In this document: piece after piece, positions 27,755 to 64,000 of the stretch
Layout: every line of letters begins with the position of its first letter
Position numbering within the stretch: the first letter of the stretch is position 1
Assembly (NCBI RefSeq): GCF_002633015.1
Contig: NZ_NSIU01000001.1
Span: forward strand, 124,001-188,000
Direction: 5' to 3'
DNA length: 64,000 nucleotides
Source of the DNA: Sulfuricurvum sp. PD_MW2
GTDB taxonomy: Bacteria; Campylobacterota; Campylobacteria; Campylobacterales; Sulfurimonadaceae
Translations under genes and position numbers: made by a program
Notes under the pieces: generated by a model
The model's database searches: none
What the model was told of the DNA's origin: nothing
Seen by the model: the letters and a program-made list of their open reading frames with translations, nothing else

Positions 27755-29854
27755 ATGCCAAATAATTACAAAGATCCAGCACTTTATATCAACCGCGAGC
27801 TATCATGGCTCCAATTTAATACCCGTGTCCTTCGACAGGCACAAGACGAATCCCTCCCGCTTTTTGAGAGACTCAAATTTTTAGCGATTTATGGAACCAA
27901 TCTCGATGAGTTTTATATGATCCGTATTGCAGGGCTCAAAAAACTCTTCAGCGCGGGAGTGAACGTCTCCGGTGCCGATCGATTTACCCCGTTACATCAG
28001 CTTCGTGAAATCCGTTCGTATTTGCACAAAGAACAGATAGAAGTTGAAGAGTGTCTGTTAGGAATCATGGAAAAACTTGAAAAAGAGGGGATCTTTTTCA
28101 AGCCTTATAAACAAGTAACCGCTCAACAGCAACAATATCTCGACAACTATTTCAAAGAGAATATCTATCCCGTCGTTGTCCCTATTGCTGTCGATGCAAC
28201 CCATCCATTCCCGCATCTCAACAACCTAAGCTTTGGGCAAATCGTCAAACTCCGCGACAAAGACGATCCGAGTGTCGAGCGCTATGGGATTATCCGTATT
28301 CCGCGCGTTTTACCGCGTTTTGTCGATATCGATAATCGTATCTATATTCCAATCGGCAGTATCGTCTCCGAACATATCCAAGATCTCTTTCCAGGCTATG
28401 AATTGCTCAAATTCTCCGCATTCCGTATCACCCGAAATGCAGATTTGGCGATTGAAGAAGAGGAAGCGGATGATTTTATGGAGATCCTCGAAGAAGGATT
28501 GAAACTCCGTAAAAAAGGGGAAATTGTCCGTCTTGAACTCAGCAATCATGCTGATGATGATCTGCTCAATTTCTTCAATCGTCATGCGAATGTCTTCAAA
28601 GATGACATTTACCGCTTCCAAACTTATCTCAATTTGGGTGCATTGTGGCAAGTGGTCGGAAACAAAGATTTTGCACATCTCAATGTCCCTAGTTTTAAAC
28701 CTCGAAATCTACCGCCGCTTGATTCGGACGAAAACCTATACACGATTCTCGACAAACAAGATCTGGTTTTGTTCCATCCATTTGAGAGTTTTGAACCCGT
28801 TGTCCGATTGATCCAAACGGCAGCAAAAGACCCTGATGTCGTCTCAATCCGAATGACACTCTATCGTTCCGGTTCCAAATCGGTTATCGTACAATCATTG
28901 ATTGCAGCAGCCGAAGCGGGGAAACAAGTCACCGTCATGGTAGAATTGCGCGCCCGTTTTGACGAAGAAAACAATCTTCAGTGGGCAAAAGCGCTTGAAA
29001 GTGCCGGTGCGCATGTTATCTATGGTATTACCGGATTTAAAGTTCATGCCAAAGCGGCGCTTATTACCCGCCGCGTAGATGGAAAACTCAAACAATACGC
29101 CCATTTGGGGACCGGAAATTATAACCCTTCGACCGCGACCGTTTATACCGATATCAGCTACATGACCAGCGATGATGCGATCACCTATGACATGACCCGT
29201 TTTTTCCACTTTTTGACTGGATTCAGTAAAAAAGGGAAGCTCAATGAGCTCTATATGGCACCAACGCAGATCAAACCAAAAATTCTCTCTCTCATCCATA
29301 ATGAAACACGTATGGGTCACGAGGGTGTCATTATCGCCAAAATGAACGCTTTGGTCGACGAAGATATCATCCGTGCCCTTTATAAAGCTTCTCAAGCAGG
29401 AGTTAAAATCGACCTGATCATACGAGGGGTCTGTTGTCTGCGTCCTGGAGTAAAAGGGGTAAGTGAAAATATCCGCGTTATCTCGATTATCGGAAAGTAC
29501 CTTGAGCATGCTCGTATTTTCTACTTTAAACACTCCACGCCGCAAACCTATATTTCTAGTGCTGATTGGATGCCAAGAAATCTATTGCGTCGGATTGAAC
29601 TTCTCACCCCGATTAACGGTGAAGACGCATCCAATAAACTGATGCAGATTTTACAGCTGCAGATTTCAGACAATGTCCTCGCCCATGAGCTCCAAAGCGA
29701 TGGAACGTATGTCAGAGTAACCCATGACGGACAAAATCCGATCAATAGCCATAGCATCGTAGAGACCCACACGAATAAAGTGTATAATTCAGTCAAAAAG
29801 CAGGCTCCGAATTACGTACAACAATTAACTACGCGACTGTTCAAAGAGAGCTAA
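27755..29854 (+). CDS. ppk1: Polyphosphate kinase 1
   Basis: 699 residues, full length. It reversibly polymerises the ATP gamma-phosphate into polyphosphate. The N-terminal INRELSWLQFN is diagnostic. The autophosphorylated histidine is in KVHAKAALITRR (about residue 431), and a second conserved histidine is in YAHLGTGNYNP (about 449). Acts at the membrane or in the cytoplasm; in Campylobacter it affects stress survival and motility. It is followed at 9 bases by the gamma carbonic anhydrase gene. Confidence 0.97.
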   Translation: MPNNYKDPALYINRELSWLQFNTRVLRQAQDESLPLFERLKFLAIYGTNLDEFYMIRIAGLKKLFSAGVNVSGADRFTPLHQLREIRSYLHKEQIEVEECLLGIMEKLEKEGIFFKPYKQVTAQQQQYLDNYFKENIYPVVVPIAVDATHPFPHLNNLSFGQIVKLRDKDDPSVERYGIIRIPRVLPRFVDIDNRIYIPIGSIVSEHIQDLFPGYELLKFSAFRITRNADLAIEEEEADDFMEILEEGLKLRKKGEIVRLELSNHADDDLLNFFNRHANVFKDDIYRFQTYLNLGALWQVVGNKDFAHLNVPSFKPRNLPPLDSDENLYTILDKQDLVLFHPFESFEPVVRLIQTAAKDPDVVSIRMTLYRSGSKSVIVQSLIAAAEAGKQVTVMVELRARFDEENNLQWAKALESAGAHVIYGITGFKVHAKAALITRRVDGKLKQYAHLGTGNYNPSTATVYTDISYMTSDDAITYDMTRFFHFLTGFSKKGKLNELYMAPTQIKPKILSLIHNETRMGHEGVIIAKMNALVDEDIIRALYKASQAGVKIDLIIRGVCCLRPGVKGVSENIRVISIIGKYLEHARIFYFKHSTPQTYISSADWMPRNLLRRIELLTPINGEDASNKLMQILQLQISDNVLAHELQSDGTYVRVTHDGQNPINSHSIVETHTNKVYNSVKKQAPNYVQQLTTRLFKES

Positions 29855-57732: not shown

Positions 57733-59718
57733 TTATACCATCTCACTCCCCATTTTTTCTTGATCGAAATAGGTTATTTGGTTTCGACCGTTCTCTTTTG
57801 ATAGGTACATCGCTGCATCGGCGTGGCGGACCAAAATCTCAATTTCATCTCCGTGATCAGGATAAAATGCCGCGCCGATACTCACCCCGATGCTCATAAA
57901 TTTTCCGTTCACCAAAAACGGTTCTTTAAGCGCTTTTAAGATTCTTTCAAAGAGCGGATGGACATCTTTGATCGAAGCGATATCACTAAAAATGATAACA
58001 AACTCATCCCCCCCGATTCGAGCTATGGCATCACTTTGTCGAAGCTCTTTTTCCAAACGGTGAGAGACTTGACGCAATAAATTATCACCCGCATCATGCC
58101 CGTGGGTATCATTAATATTTTTGAACCCATCCAAATCCAAAAATGAGATAACCGCTTTTGTCTTGTTTCGCTTTGAAAACGAAAGAATCTGCTCTGCCAA
58201 TGTGAGGAAAAGATGACGATTCGGCAAATTGGTCAACGGATCATAATTGGCCATATGGTGTAGCTGCTCTTGACGTATTTTATGCTCGGTAATATCACTG
58301 AAAATACCGATGTAGTTTTCTACATTCCCATCTTTGTCACGTATTGCATCAATTCTTAAGAACTCGGCATAAAGTTCACCGCTTTTTTTCTTGTTCCATA
58401 TCTCTCCGCGCCAGGAGGCATTCACCCGAATCGCTTCGTCCAGTTTGTTATAAAACTCTTTTTCATGAATTCCCGAACGTAATAAAACCGGTTTTTGTCC
58501 GATTACTTCTTCTCGAGCATACCCCGTAACCTCACAAAATGCTTCATTCACTTCGATAATATATTTTTTGGTATCGGTTATAACGATACCTTCTCGCGAA
58601 TTATGGAAAACTCCCGCAGCACGGCGCAATGATTTTTCATGTGCTTGAACAAGTTGAACCTGATTTTCAAGTGATACCGATTTGAAATGCAATCGATTCG
58701 TCAATTGTCTCATTTTACCCACCAGAAAAATCAAAAGAATGATTACCATACTGAGAGAAAGTATGATATATAAACCATATCGGGTAATAACATCATGAAG
58801 AGAAAAACGGGGAAGCGTATCATAAGGTTTTACCCGCAACTCCTGCATCATCGTACGAATTCCCTCATAGGATAAGGGGATACTCCATCCGTAATATCCT
58901 GCTTTTTTAGTAACATCTGAACCATAAGGGAGCTTGAGCAATGCCACGACCACTTTGTTTGCCAAAGTATGGTTTGTTTTTTTGGTGGATGCAAATGGCC
59001 ATTCAGGGTAAAGCGTCGTAGAAAGAGCTAATGGAAAGTTATCAACCGGATGGATGATTTTAAAATCTTCTCTTTTGATTTTCCCCTCTTTTGCCATTTT
59101 TTCCAGTACACCGGTTCGAATAAATCCGATATCCGAAGCCCCTCTTTCAACACTATACACAACCTTGTCGTGCGGCATATCAACAAAAGCAATGGTTGTT
59201 TCATCGACAATATTAATACCGTTCTCCTCGAAAAGTTTCCGCTGTGCCAAATAGCCTCCCAGTGAGAGTTCATCAACCGCAGCAACTCTTTTCCCTTTGA
59301 TGTCATTGAGATTTTTGATATCACTGCGGTTAGATCGGCTGATTATCACTCCTCCAAACTCTGTTAGCTCTTTACCTCCAATATTTGTTCGAATCAATGT
59401 CGCTATCCGTGTAGCATCATATTTTGTCGAAAGGTAGATATAGTGTTCGGGATTGGTGAACATAAAATCGAGTTCATTGGCTTTTGCCGCATCGTTAAAC
59501 TCAGCATAGCTCAAAGGTCGAATTGTAAAAGAATGGGTAGAAATTTGTGTATTCAAATAATCGGCTAAAGGCTGCCACTCGTGAAGTGTCTCGGCTTTAG
59601 AACGAAACGCTAAAACACCTATCACAGCTGTAGGCTTTTTTGATAATGAAGATTGCGCTTCAACAGAAGCCATCAAAGAGACAAGAGCTAAAAAGAGTAT
59701 AAAAATAGACTTGATCAT
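57733..59718 (-). CDS. PhnD-like periplasmic sensor with PAS and GGDEF domains
   Basis: 661 residues. A signal peptide (1-21) leads to a PhnD-like phosphonate/oxyanion-binding domain (about 30-290). One membrane helix (about 315-336) follows, then a PAS domain (about 370-478) and GGDEF domain (about 495-655). The signature GGDEF is at 569-573 with inhibitory RQSD at 560-563. So a periplasmic ligand likely controls c-di-GMP output inside. It is the last gene after the Sox-linked genes, on the same strand. The start ATG at 59718 has GAGG six bases before it and lies in a hairpin. Confidence 0.93.
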   Translation of the reverse strand: MIKSIFILFLALVSLMASVEAQSSLSKKPTAVIGVLAFRSKAETLHEWQPLADYLNTQISTHSFTIRPLSYAEFNDAAKANELDFMFTNPEHYIYLSTKYDATRIATLIRTNIGGKELTEFGGVIISRSNRSDIKNLNDIKGKRVAAVDELSLGGYLAQRKLFEENGINIVDETTIAFVDMPHDKVVYSVERGASDIGFIRTGVLEKMAKEGKIKREDFKIIHPVDNFPLALSTTLYPEWPFASTKKTNHTLANKVVVALLKLPYGSDVTKKAGYYGWSIPLSYEGIRTMMQELRVKPYDTLPRFSLHDVITRYGLYIILSLSMVIILLIFLVGKMRQLTNRLHFKSVSLENQVQLVQAHEKSLRRAAGVFHNSREGIVITDTKKYIIEVNEAFCEVTGYAREEVIGQKPVLLRSGIHEKEFYNKLDEAIRVNASWRGEIWNKKKSGELYAEFLRIDAIRDKDGNVENYIGIFSDITEHKIRQEQLHHMANYDPLTNLPNRHLFLTLAEQILSFSKRNKTKAVISFLDLDGFKNINDTHGHDAGDNLLRQVSHRLEKELRQSDAIARIGGDEFVIIFSDIASIKDVHPLFERILKALKEPFLVNGKFMSIGVSIGAAFYPDHGDEIEILVRHADAAMYLSKENGRNQITYFDQEKMGSEMV

Positions 59719-59751
59719 CTTATACCTCACTTAGTCTCAGTATAAGATGAT
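59714..59751 (-). promoter_or_regulatory. Perfect 12-bp inverted repeat containing the start codon of the PhnD-PAS-GGDEF gene
   Basis: Arms ATCATCTTATAC (59714-59725) and GTATAAGATGAT (59740-59751) with a 14-base spacer. In the mRNA, the 3' arm contains the AUG and the spacer-arm boundary contains the GUGAGG ribosome-binding site. The structure could hide the start codon, act as an operator, or end the upstream transcript. It is present in the sequence; the function is inferred. Confidence 0.6.
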
Positions 59752-59777
59752 TAGTATTAATAAAAAATTAAATTAAC

Positions 59778-60686
59778 TTATTCAAGCGTACTTTGGAGTA
59801 CGGCTTCAAAATCTTTTTGCGCCTGAAGTAATACTGCTTTTGCTTCTGCATCATTTACACGAGCACTGCTCATCCAGTTATAAACACCCGGGAAACCCAT
59901 TACGATTTCGTTTGCATCTTTCTTTTTGTATACCATCAATGAACACGGAGCAAAAGCTGCGGCTTCAGGACGCGTTTTTGCTACCGTATAAATGACTTTT
60001 AATTTACAGATTGAGTAAGTATCATAAAAGTTAAATGGACTTGGTGTATTGCTTTCGTTCAGGATAAAGTTATAGTCAGTAAAGTTAGACAATACAAATC
60101 CAGCCGGTTTCAATCCCTCTTCAATCATCATCTCAGTGTTCTCTTTGTCACCTGACCAACTCTCAGCGCTCGTTGTACGTACGTATTTGGTTAATAGTTT
60201 TCCCTCAGATGGTAAAGATGCTTCACTTACACTAAATTTCGCGCTCGGTAATGCTTTTTTGAGAGTATTCAAGACTTCTTTTTCGATCAATGCAAATTCA
60301 GGAGCATCAAAACCTGCGATTTTTTTCATCGATTTTGCTGTTAGCACCGAAACATGAAGAGCCTTGTCATCTTTACGTTGATAGATCCCAAATCCCATCG
60401 GAACGAAAATCCCTGCGTCAGGATGTGATTTCACCAATGACGCCGCTAACTTTTTATGAAATCCCGTCAAAAGATTGAATTGAGCAAAATCGCTTTGTCC
60501 GAATTGTTTCATAAACGGACCGTTCATCTCACTGTTCGCCGAAATCACAAAACCGTTCGCTTCCAGGGCTTTTTCAATGACGCCTGCATTGACTTTTCCA
60601 TCAGCGTTCGGAACACTGATCAAATGCAAATCTCCCCCAAAGAGAGATAAAACTCCTATTACTAATAACAAAACAATGTTTTTCAT
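59778..60686 (-). CDS. Exported tandem DUF302-like protein
   Basis: 302 residues. A signal peptide (about 1-18) implies the periplasm. The mature protein has two related halves. The first (about 20-120) includes ALEANGFVIS and GIFVPMGFGIYQRKDD. The second (about 185-285) includes EEGLKPAGFVLSNF and AAAFAPCSLMVYKKKD. This is the DUF302 pattern. DUF302 proteins have no settled function but are often near sulfur genes in this phylum. It lies 8 bases downstream of the DsrE-like gene. Confidence 0.75.
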   Translation of the reverse strand: MKNIVLLLVIGVLSLFGGDLHLISVPNADGKVNAGVIEKALEANGFVISANSEMNGPFMKQFGQSDFAQFNLLTGFHKKLAASLVKSHPDAGIFVPMGFGIYQRKDDKALHVSVLTAKSMKKIAGFDAPEFALIEKEVLNTLKKALPSAKFSVSEASLPSEGKLLTKYVRTTSAESWSGDKENTEMMIEEGLKPAGFVLSNFTDYNFILNESNTPSPFNFYDTYSICKLKVIYTVAKTRPEAAAFAPCSLMVYKKKDANEIVMGFPGVYNWMSSARVNDAEAKAVLLQAQKDFEAVLQSTLE

Positions 60687-60694
60687 ACTGACTC

Positions 60695-61129
60695 CTATGG
60701 TTGAATATAAAATGCGCCCTCTGTGGCACGTTCGATCACTTCTGCAATCCCTGCACTGACAATTTCGACATCATCATCGAGCTGATCGGGAGTGATTTTT
60801 TTAGTCTCCATCGTATTGCCGCATGCAACGAATTCGACACCGTATTGCTGCAACGCTCTGACGCGTACCGCAATATCTTTTTCACTTTTAAGCAACGTTC
60901 GGATACCGTGATAGTACGCGACGATACGCAGGTGAATTTTCTCAGGTCCGTAAAATTTGAGAATATTGTTCGCAGTACTCAAACCGTGGTGAATTGCTTC
61001 ATCATCCCCATGACTGATCCCCATAACCACTTCTCGCGGTTTTTCCATCGTCGGAATCGGTTCCGCCAAACGGACATCACCGAAAGCAAGTACCGATAAA
61101 AAGGAGAAGAGTACGATAAAGCGTTTCAT
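60695..61129 (-). CDS. Exported DsrE-family protein
   Basis: 144 residues. A signal peptide (about 1-17) followed by a DsrE-type fold: MGISHGDDEAIHHGL near residue 35 and the conserved Cys in FVACGNTM (about 106). DsrE-family proteins carry sulfur as persulfide. Being exported is unusual for them and suggests a periplasmic sulfur role. The ATG at 61129 overlaps the upstream stop by one base. Confidence 0.85.
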   Translation of the reverse strand: MKRFIVLFSFLSVLAFGDVRLAEPIPTMEKPREVVMGISHGDDEAIHHGLSTANNILKFYGPEKIHLRIVAYYHGIRTLLKSEKDIAVRVRALQQYGVEFVACGNTMETKKITPDQLDDDVEIVSAGIAEVIERATEGAFYIQP

Positions 61130-62040
61130 TATTGTTCCCATTCCAAAACCCGATACGAAGCTTCAACGTTTCCGCCTTGCATTGCATCGTACAGTTTTAG
61201 TGAGCGATATTCGCGCATCTGTACTTTTTTGATTGTCTCATCAATACCCATCCCAGAATCGATCGCCGAACGGATTTCGGAACGCATTTGTGAAAGGTAT
61301 TCATGGGTCATTTTCGAACTGTTCTTGTCACTATTGCGTCCATGTCCGCCGATCACGTGCAATGCTCCCATCGCTTCAAGTTCCTCAAGGGTTGTAATCC
61401 ATCCGTTGATATTTCCCCCTTTGACAGACGGAAGTCGATCATTAAATACCAAGTCTCCGGCAAACAAAACACCTAATTTTGGGAAATAGACCACTAAATC
61501 TTTTGTCGTATGGGCCATTCTAGGAATGATTTTCAATTCAACATCGAGATTGCCTACTTTTTTACGTGTACTCTGCGAAATCATCTCGCTTGGAAGGCTC
61601 ATCTCCGTCCCTTTGTACGCCTCCGGGGAAATAGTACTTTGCATTCGTGTCGCTTCATGCACATTTACATTGTGCAAAAAGTCATCCGAACCCACAACAC
61701 TAACTCCGTTTTGGGTAAAAAATCCATTACCGAGCCAATGATCGTCATGAATATGGGTATTGATGACGAGTTTAACCGGTAGCGGTTTGATTTTTTTCAT
61801 TGCATTGTATGCCGACTCGGCGTATGCATACGAGGGACCCGTATCAATGACTATATATCCCTCACCTGCATCGACATAACAGCTGTTTACGATATTGCCG
61901 TTGTTGGTTTTATTCATCACTTCAGGCGCACCAAAAAAACAGTGCACGTTTGAAGTGACTCGAACCGGTTTAAGTGCGTACTCAAATGCACTCAAGCTCG
62001 ATACAGTGAACAGAAAAGCAACCAACAACGTTTTCATCAT
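61129..62040 (-). CDS. Exported metallo-beta-lactamase-fold hydrolase (SoxH-like)
   Basis: 303 residues. A signal peptide (about 1-17). The metal site has THIHDDHW (about 96-103), a further His in MAHTTKDL, an Asp in LFAGDLVFNDRL, and a His in IGGHGRNSD. It resembles SoxH and the quinoprotein-linked periplasmic hydrolases. It probably acts on thiol or glutathione-type adducts in the periplasm, but the substrate is unknown. It is 7 bases downstream of the porin gene. Confidence 0.85.
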   Translation of the reverse strand: MMKTLLVAFLFTVSSLSAFEYALKPVRVTSNVHCFFGAPEVMNKTNNGNIVNSCYVDAGEGYIVIDTGPSYAYAESAYNAMKKIKPLPVKLVINTHIHDDHWLGNGFFTQNGVSVVGSDDFLHNVNVHEATRMQSTISPEAYKGTEMSLPSEMISQSTRKKVGNLDVELKIIPRMAHTTKDLVVYFPKLGVLFAGDLVFNDRLPSVKGGNINGWITTLEELEAMGALHVIGGHGRNSDKNSSKMTHEYLSQMRSEIRSAIDSGMGIDETIKKVQMREYRSLKLYDAMQGGNVEASYRVLEWEQ

Positions 62041-62047
62041 TCAGCCT

Positions 62048-63589
62048 TTAGAAGAGATAATTCATTTCAAAACGATATTCGTTATACGAGTTATTATCAA
62101 CCGTTCCTTGAACTGTTGCACTCGTATATGCCGGATCAGCGTTTACAGTTGCAAAACGAAATTTAAACTCTGTGTTCGGCAACGATTTAAACGTTTGTGT
62201 TGCATCTACATGGAAAATTGTACGGTCGGTAAATGTTGATGTAAATGCTTTTTTATCATCAAAATTCATATTTTCATAATCCGCTGCAACCAGCAATCCT
62301 GGAACCAATCCTGCTTTTCCGAAATCATATACTGCTTTTACAGCCCAGTTTTTCGTGTTTGCGATCCAGTCAACTTGCGCCATTGAACGGGTATATCCAC
62401 CTGTCGGAAATCCACGCCATGGAGCGATAATATCCGCATCATCCGAGATTTTTGAGTACCCGGCAGACAATTCTAACGGTCCGCTTGCCGCAACCAAACG
62501 CGCCATGATAATGCTACCATCCGCATTACGTGCATCTTTATATCCGCCTGAAGCGGTCCCCACTGGAATAGCTCTTAAGCTTCCGCTTAACGATGCACCA
62601 CCAATATATCCTGCGCCATCATCCATTTGTTTTAAGTAACGAATACCTGGGGTCAATGTCCAAGAATCATTCAGTTTGATTTGATAATTTGCTTCACCGA
62701 TTACGGTATTAAAAAATCCTTGGAGTCCGATATACTCACCATCAAGTTTTAAATTCGGGATTGATTTGTTAGAAACTGTCAACAATTTCATTTCAGGATC
62801 AACATCACCCCCACCTTTAGTACGAATATTGTATGCAGACAATCCTTTATGTGTCCCAGAATCATCATTGTATGCCGTTTTATCTGTACTTAAAGTTGCA
62901 CTGTCAGCTCCGCTGGCAATTAAACTATGAAATTCTTGGTGATCACGTAATTTTTGAGCCGTAATATATCCAGCACGAATGGTCGTGTCAGGAATATCTT
63001 TATTTTCAATCACAGCAGCTTCAAAGGTATTCGGAATCATTTTTGTGTCGTTGGTCGCAATCATGATGCTATCGATCCCTTGTCGCCCAACTTTAACATT
63101 CGTTTTGCCATTTTTGTATTCCAAATAAGCTTCGGCAAAATTCCCCATTGCACCTTCAGTGCCATCACGTCGTGTATGATAGGTATCTTTACCTGCTTTA
63201 CCAAAGTTTGTATTCGCTACTGCAGGGTCGATATTGTCTCTATGCATAGGAACAGTCCCATAAAATCCTGCTGTTGCACCTAAACCATGGAAAAAACCGG
63301 TTTTATAGACAACACTTCCCCCAAGTCCCCACATATTGTTATCACGTGTTTGGCTTGATCCAGATGTTTTTTCAGTATCCCAATCCCACCAGAACATATT
63401 CGAACGTAACCGGCCATATACTTCACCCTCTGTAAACATTTCAGTAAAAGAATTTACTGAACCCGGTGCTTTTGTATATTCAACTTGATAATTTGCTTTG
63501 AGCACGCGATCTTCTGTTTTAAGTGCATACGCTGACGTTGCCAACAAACAGGTAGCCGCTGCTACCATACTCAATTTCACTAATTTCAT
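62048..63589 (-). CDS. Outer-membrane porin of the Sox cluster
   Basis: 513 residues. A signal peptide (MKLVKLSMVAAATCLLATSA) is followed by alternating beta-strand sequence ending in the aromatic Phe typical of barrels (YRFEMNYLF). The length suggests an OprD-like barrel of about 18 strands. The ATG at 63589 has AAGGAG upstream. The cargo, perhaps thiosulfate or other sulfur oxyanion, is inferred only from position 38 bases after soxB. Homologous porins occur widely in this phylum. Confidence 0.88.
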   Translation of the reverse strand: MKLVKLSMVAAATCLLATSAYALKTEDRVLKANYQVEYTKAPGSVNSFTEMFTEGEVYGRLRSNMFWWDWDTEKTSGSSQTRDNNMWGLGGSVVYKTGFFHGLGATAGFYGTVPMHRDNIDPAVANTNFGKAGKDTYHTRRDGTEGAMGNFAEAYLEYKNGKTNVKVGRQGIDSIMIATNDTKMIPNTFEAAVIENKDIPDTTIRAGYITAQKLRDHQEFHSLIASGADSATLSTDKTAYNDDSGTHKGLSAYNIRTKGGGDVDPEMKLLTVSNKSIPNLKLDGEYIGLQGFFNTVIGEANYQIKLNDSWTLTPGIRYLKQMDDGAGYIGGASLSGSLRAIPVGTASGGYKDARNADGSIIMARLVAASGPLELSAGYSKISDDADIIAPWRGFPTGGYTRSMAQVDWIANTKNWAVKAVYDFGKAGLVPGLLVAADYENMNFDDKKAFTSTFTDRTIFHVDATQTFKSLPNTEFKFRFATVNADPAYTSATVQGTVDNNSYNEYRFEMNYLF

Positions 63590-63627
63590 TCCTAACTCCT
63601 TAAGTTTGATTACATTATGCGCATGGC

Positions 63628-64000
63628 TTAGCAGCCGCGAGCACCTTTTTTCGGGCATCCGCAGTCATAATCCATAATTTTGACATTGCTATTACCACTT
63701 ATATTAACATTTTTTTGCCGACGAATGTATGCAGAGGTTACATCATATACCGGACGGGTCAGCTGTTCTTTGAGATTGCTTCCCGCATTTTGGAGATTGC
63801 CGCCCCATGAAGATACTTTGTATACTTTCGTATCACTCAAAGGTTTCCCGCCTACCATGATATTCGTAATCCGTTTACCGCTCGGAGCACCGATACGAAT
63901 TTCATAGGTCACACCGCCCAAACGGCTCATATCTCCACCTTGTTGATAAAGCGGGTTGGCGTTGAATACATTATCCGCAATGTCTTCCAACAATGTTCGG
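63628..64000 (-). CDS. soxB: Sulfate thiohydrolase SoxB, C-terminal part (runs off the window)
   Basis: About 123 residues of the C-terminus are visible; the N-terminus with the dimanganese site is beyond base 64000. VFNANPLYQQGGDMSRLGG and GAPSGKRITNIMVGGKPL match the C-terminal nucleotidase domain of SoxB. SoxB hydrolyses sulfate from the SoxY-bound sulfane adduct during thiosulfate oxidation. The tail after residue 100 has a Cys-rich end (CGCPKKGARGC), which is unusual for SoxB as I know it. Confidence 0.9.
   Translation of the reverse strand, partial: RTLLEDIADNVFNANPLYQQGGDMSRLGGVTYEIRIGAPSGKRITNIMVGGKPLSDTKVYKVSSWGGNLQNAGSNLKEQLTRPVYDVTSAYIRRQKNVNISGNSNVKIMDYDCGCPKKGARGC

Follow-up and report, generated by a model that had tools for sequence, protein, structure and literature searches.

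A start-codon hairpin overlapping a probable promoter at a Sulfuricurvum sensor gene, and its proposed role in read-through from the sox genes

We asked why the start codon of a sensor gene that follows a run of sox genes in Sulfuricurvum sp. PD_MW2 lies inside a perfect hairpin, and which transcripts of the gene would carry it. The window, meaning here the whole stretch of DNA that was analysed, comprises 64,000 nucleotides (contig NZ_NSIU01000001.1, positions 124,001 to 188,000), and all positions below refer to it unless a contig is named. Labels such as G028 denote genomes, the window's own genome being G000.

The inverted repeat and its gene neighbourhood

The preliminary description of this DNA had reported two exact 12-base arms, separated by a 14-base spacer, around the AUG. 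The coordinates, read on the minus strand, bear this out: the arms are 100% complementary and form a single perfect inverted repeat (Table 1). No other 12-bp perfect inverted repeat with a spacer of 3 to 20 nt exists in the window, and when the window was simulated 20 times with a first-order Markov model, one run held a repeat of this length. The statement that a chance match was unlikely also holds, with a mean of 0.05 such repeats per simulated window and a nine-pair core that relatives carry at the corresponding position. The sole other perfect inverted repeat of at least 10 bp within the same spacer limits is found at 28076-28102 (11 bp, loop GGGGA). Folded as RNA, the repeat at the sensor start gives 13 pairs, with an extra inner U·G beyond the exact arms, and the isolated hairpin is predicted at −15.1 kcal/mol; a 191-nt context was only modestly more stable than its shuffles (z −1.63, 11 of 200 shuffles as good).

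Table 1. Positions of the features at the sensor gene start and in the upstream gene run (window coordinates)
Feature	Position	Strand	Basis or remark
Downstream (3') arm GTATAAGATGAT	59714..59725	(-)	Inverted-repeat search, folding
Upstream (5') arm ATCATCTTATAC	59740..59751	(-)	Inverted-repeat search, folding
ATG start codon	59716..59718	(-)	Position kept in relatives
Shine-Dalgarno GAGG	59725..59728	(-)	Last G inside stem, preceding G pairs as G·U
Probable −10 hexamer TATACT, overlapping the upstream arm	59739..59744	(-)	TATACT in 13/13 loci
HP1043/HsrA-like box TTTAAT-N5-ATTAAT, in the −35 place	59756..59772	(-)	Pattern match G000:C23:183739-183771; consensus and position as in published promoters
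Predicted transcription start, in the loop, +/- about 2 nt	59732..59732	(-)	Placed from the −10 position; 5' leader of about 14 nt
Sensor gene, PhnD-like periplasmic binding domain (PF12974) + PAS + GGDEF, 661 aa	57733..59718	(-)	Domain search
DUF302 domain gene, next upstream; stop 26 nt before the upstream arm	59778..60686	(-)	Domain search
DsrE-like and SoxH-like metallo-hydrolase (MBL) genes	60695..62040	(-)	Domain search; part of the upstream run
OprD-like porin gene	62048..63658	(-)	soxB, A, Z, Y, X further upstream, mostly past the window end

The genes upstream form a run, soxXYZAB-OprD-MBL-DsrE-DUF302, that is co-oriented with the sensor gene. The names soxX, soxY, soxZ, soxA and soxB were assigned above the NCBIfam cut-off, and that of the SoxH-like metallo-hydrolase below it. 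A junction scan found no terminator-like site between the DUF302 gene and the sensor gene. In the PDB, the N-terminal binding domain of the sensor has matches to PtxB, to a phosphonate-binding protein and to ArrX; it resembles the oxyanion-binding proteins PtxB and ArrX, which makes an oxyanion a plausible ligand.

Orthologs (E <= 1e-150) were found in 13 of the 228 genomes of the family, all belonging to one genus; a search of named genomes gave 5 loci, all from Sulfuricurvum MAGs, on contigs at least partly shared with the family-genome set. In 12 of the 13 stretches the DUF302 gene is followed by the sensor gene, or by a GGDEF gene and the sensor gene. The thirteenth, G013, is a short stretch with no genes listed; it was included in the start scan, the alignment, the covariation and the 5'-arm opening-cost analyses, and left out of the comparison of read-through with own-promoter RNA (12 loci). 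In G003 and G023 a second PAS/GGDEF gene (L054 and L055, respectively) lies between the DUF302 and sensor genes. The start of this first gene was used for both genomes (rows G003p and G023p); at the sensor's own start a comparable arm is absent in G003 and only weak in G023. The promoter-hairpin of G023 stands in front of a different GGDEF gene, the first after DUF302.

The probable promoter in the upstream arm

The hexamer TATACT is likely the −10 of the sensor's own promoter. It is retained even in G028 and G003p, where the stem is broken, and its overlap with the hairpin arm, a point absent from the preliminary description, is well supported by sequence. If TATACT occupies −12 to −7, the first transcribed base would fall in the loop, at about 59732. 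A simple sigma-70 scan that requires a −35 did not report this promoter, as expected if another box replaces the −35. Most loci have TTTAAN-N5-NTTAAN upstream of TATACT (in G011, TTTAAC-N5-CTTAAA). As far as the available text of two papers on Helicobacter pylori goes (PMC8345958, PMC5253667), promoters activated by HP1043 have no −35 but two TTTAAG hexamers separated by 5 bp, which in one promoter, with the site TTTAAG-5bp-CTTAAA, span −42 to −26. In sequence, the promoter proposed here resembles these HP1043/HsrA promoters, as described there, in having a −10 without a −35 and paired TTTAAG-like hexamers 5 bp apart; unlike them, the site in the window is degenerate. An HP1043/HsrA-type activator box probably serves instead of the −35.

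A relaxed pattern chosen after seeing these loci, TTAA-N7-TTAA-N12-TATANT, matches 8 of the 13 loci exactly, the others deviating from it, and occurs 154 times in 41 genomes, versus 24 times for the reversed pattern. A stricter one (TTTAAS...) had zero matches in G000 because G000's own box ends in T. Four further sites of the relaxed pattern were found in G000 (G000:C29:44663, C36:50656, C69:619 and C10:23917; L119-L122), each with a same-strand open reading frame starting just downstream. These HP1043-like box promoters precede L21/L27, typA and two other genes; from inspection by eye, we take two of the four reading frames to be typA and rplU, the latter coding for ribosomal protein L21 and lying next to the L27 gene. 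The enrichment of the pattern across the 41 genomes could help to define a CosR/HsrA regulon in the genus. An HP1043/CosR-like response regulator gene (L068) is located at G000:C23:199059, on the contig of the window and about 11 kb past the window's end. G000 thus encodes a response regulator, an HP1043 relative, whose match to PDB 2hqr is full-length; 2hqr is HP1043, and 8uvx and 8uuz are CosR-type proteins.

Conservation of the stem and evidence for pairing in RNA

The preliminary description had named arm conservation and compensatory changes in relatives as the check on its suggestion of translational control, and this check was run. The conserved part of the stem consists of the core CTTATACT/GGTATAAG and the first base of the start codon, that is nine pairs. 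Full pairing of the AUG is peculiar to this genome; relatives usually carry a mismatch at its second base, which is unpaired in 9 of 13 rows. The sequence CTTATAC-N14-GTATAAG is exact in 7 genomes; G023p has the same core with N15, and G016 and G022 have TTTATAC/GTATAAA with spacers of 15 and 16. Both the sequence and the length (14-16) of the loop drift among loci. The start scan covered 228 starts with a Shine-Dalgarno-like motif. Perfect pairing of at least 8 Watson-Crick pairs was found at 10 of the 13 orthologous loci, which account for every such stem in the scan, versus 0 of 218 other gene starts, where the maximum was 7 pairs; these 218 are not independent, because many are orthologs of each other.

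Covariation was assessed on an alignment of 13 rows (A1). The 13-pair structure gives 84.6% paired cells versus 39.6-53.3% in slid registers. Its covariation score of 0.213 exceeds those of all slid registers (0.094-0.126), and one of 500 shuffles, which ignore ancestry, scored as high; the counts rest on 13 related sequences. The number of further pair types in A1 was not above that of the shuffles (202/500). An unguided RNAalifold prediction returned the nine-pair core with changes on both sides at three pairs. At the first base of the start codon, T-A becomes C-G in G028, which has a GTG start and a C replacing T in the 5' arm; a C-G pair is changed to T-A in G016, G022 and G003p, and a T-A pair to C-G in G021. 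For the C-G/T-A pair, compared among ten loci, the tree requires at least 2 changes; columns less than 80% filled were removed from the tree alignment, and among the gene patterns used for it the MBL protein was found in 1 genome only, DUF302 was not found in G023, and G013 contributed the sensor only (28% of columns filled). G·U pairs are present in G021 and G003, and in G021 they preserve seven inner pairs. The covariation is based on few events, and the pairs within TATACT say little about RNA pairing because the −10 itself fixes part of the pairing. Altogether, the conservation of the stem is well supported, and so is the hairpin as a real, conserved RNA element.

One could imagine that the two arms are constrained separately, the 5' arm by its role as a −10 and the 3' arm by that of ribosome-binding context; that they are complementary would then be an ancestral accident kept by both constraints. 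The persistence of TATACT where pairing is lost and the location of the 3' arm between the Shine-Dalgarno sequence and the start codon agree with this explanation. However, it does not account for a stem seen at none of the other starts, for the paired changes at three core positions, among them the one at the GTG start of G028, or for the G·U-preserving changes of G021, and we regard it as unlikely, though worth keeping in mind.

The preliminary description had also offered a symmetric operator, which here would mean a dimeric regulator bound to a dyad over the promoter and the start. The perfect dyad of G000 indeed overlaps the probable promoter, and the distance between its half-site centres (7-bp core, spacer 14) is 21 bp, which corresponds to about two turns of the helix. 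However, the exact core occurs at this locus alone in 7 genomes and nowhere else. Pattern searches allowing up to 3 mismatches gave no second operator site; allowing at most one mismatch in the core gave only scattered one-mismatch matches in G021, G022 and G036, not above the reversed-pattern control. A dyad core present once per genome therefore provides no regulon. The half-sites also have no fixed spacing (14, 15 or 16 nt), and G·U pairs are meaningless in DNA. The palindromic operator was rejected on these grounds, and we hold it to be improbable. The changes on both sides of the stem, the G·U pairs and the drift of the loop favour pairing in RNA over a DNA operator.

Proposed insulation from read-through and comparable systems

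We propose, as the rather more probable reading of this arrangement, that the hairpin hides the sensor start in read-through mRNA only, that its 5' arm doubles as the −10 of the gene's own promoter, and that the sensor is thereby insulated from the sox genes. Comparing the sequences establishes that stem and −10 are conserved, that the box is there and how the genes are ordered; the start site, the read-through and the translational silencing are what we infer. The read-through mRNA from the sox gene run would carry both arms and fold the hairpin over the ribosome-binding site and the sensor start. The mRNA from the gene's own promoter would begin in the loop and so lack the upstream arm; it would be translatable, and the full hairpin would form only in read-through mRNA. 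Because only the own-promoter mRNA would escape the hairpin, the sensor level would be set by that promoter and shielded from swings in sox transcription. The footprint of a ribosome reaches about 15 nt downstream, and a ribosome stopping at the end of the DUF302 gene would, given the distance of that stop codon (Table 1), be too far away to open the arm.

Folding gives mixed support for poor translation of the read-through RNA and good translation of the gene's own mRNA. When the pairing of the 5' arm was removed, the predicted cost of opening the ribosome-binding site fell by at least 2.5 kcal/mol in 10 of 13 loci (120/60 context); in a 60/40 context it did so in 11 of 13, the window's own locus showing a drop of only 2.1 kcal/mol. 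Between read-through and own-promoter RNA the cost differed by at least 4 kcal/mol in only 7 of 12 loci, and the difference was absent or small in the other five (G028, G020, G024, G003p and G023p).

The earlier suggestion of translational control stands in kind, through the conserved pairing, the compensatory and G·U changes and a stem over the ribosome-binding site. Its form as a thermometer or ligand-type leader in the normal mRNA is disfavoured, because the upstream arm holds the probable −10 and that mRNA would be without the arm. A different possibility is that the sequence is under double selection, as a sigma-70 −10 and as an anti-RBS strand, and acts as a conditional switch: read-through sox mRNA would normally be silent for the sensor, but a ligand, protein or small RNA could open the stem, so that sox expression would itself raise the sensor; we give this little credence. 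A leader hairpin that belongs to the normal mRNA of the gene and is regulated as a thermometer, by RNA or by protein would suit the strong stem over the ribosome-binding site and AUG but conflicts with the probable −10 in the 5' arm, and we judge it very improbable; an Rfam search gave no family at threshold, the only match being RsaJ at 14.2 bits against a threshold of 100, and a known Rfam leader or thermometer was set aside on that result.

If insulation from read-through is the true function, this would be a chromosomal case, conserved across species, in which a promoter set inside the stem that hides the start keeps the operon mRNA from being translated into the product of the gene at the operon's end. 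The thiosulfate oxidation genes and the neighbouring c-di-GMP-type sensor would then be under separate control. It would also show how misleading it can be to annotate genes of this sort as plain members of an operon.

In our literature search this kind of arrangement appeared in phage T4 and in Bacillus subtilis sigG, and no paper on the present locus was found. In the available text of PMC3014915, long read-through transcripts of T4 gene e form a hairpin that covers the start, and late-promoter transcripts, which lack the 5' portion, escape it; the silencing was measured at about 100-fold. The arrangement proposed for the sensor gene resembles that of gene e (and soc, 49 and I-TevI) in combining a read-through hairpin over the start with an own-promoter transcript that would lack the 5' part. 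In T4, however, a phage late promoter, lysis timing and measured silencing are involved, whereas here the setting is a bacterial chromosome, with a sigma-70-type −10, an HP1043-like box, a c-di-GMP-type sensor and a silencing that is proposed. For sigG, which lies behind spoIIGA-sigE, the portion of PMC5942855 available puts forward a hairpin as a block on the translation of mRNA that reads through from the operon upstream, and own-promoter transcripts are described as unable to form it, as would be the case for the sensor gene under our proposal. The sigG hairpin is much larger (20+ pairs) and belongs to the sporulation sigma factors of a Firmicute, and no homology is claimed. By analogy with T4 gene e and sigG, a translational insulator against read-through appears to be the best reading of the hairpin at the sensor gene.
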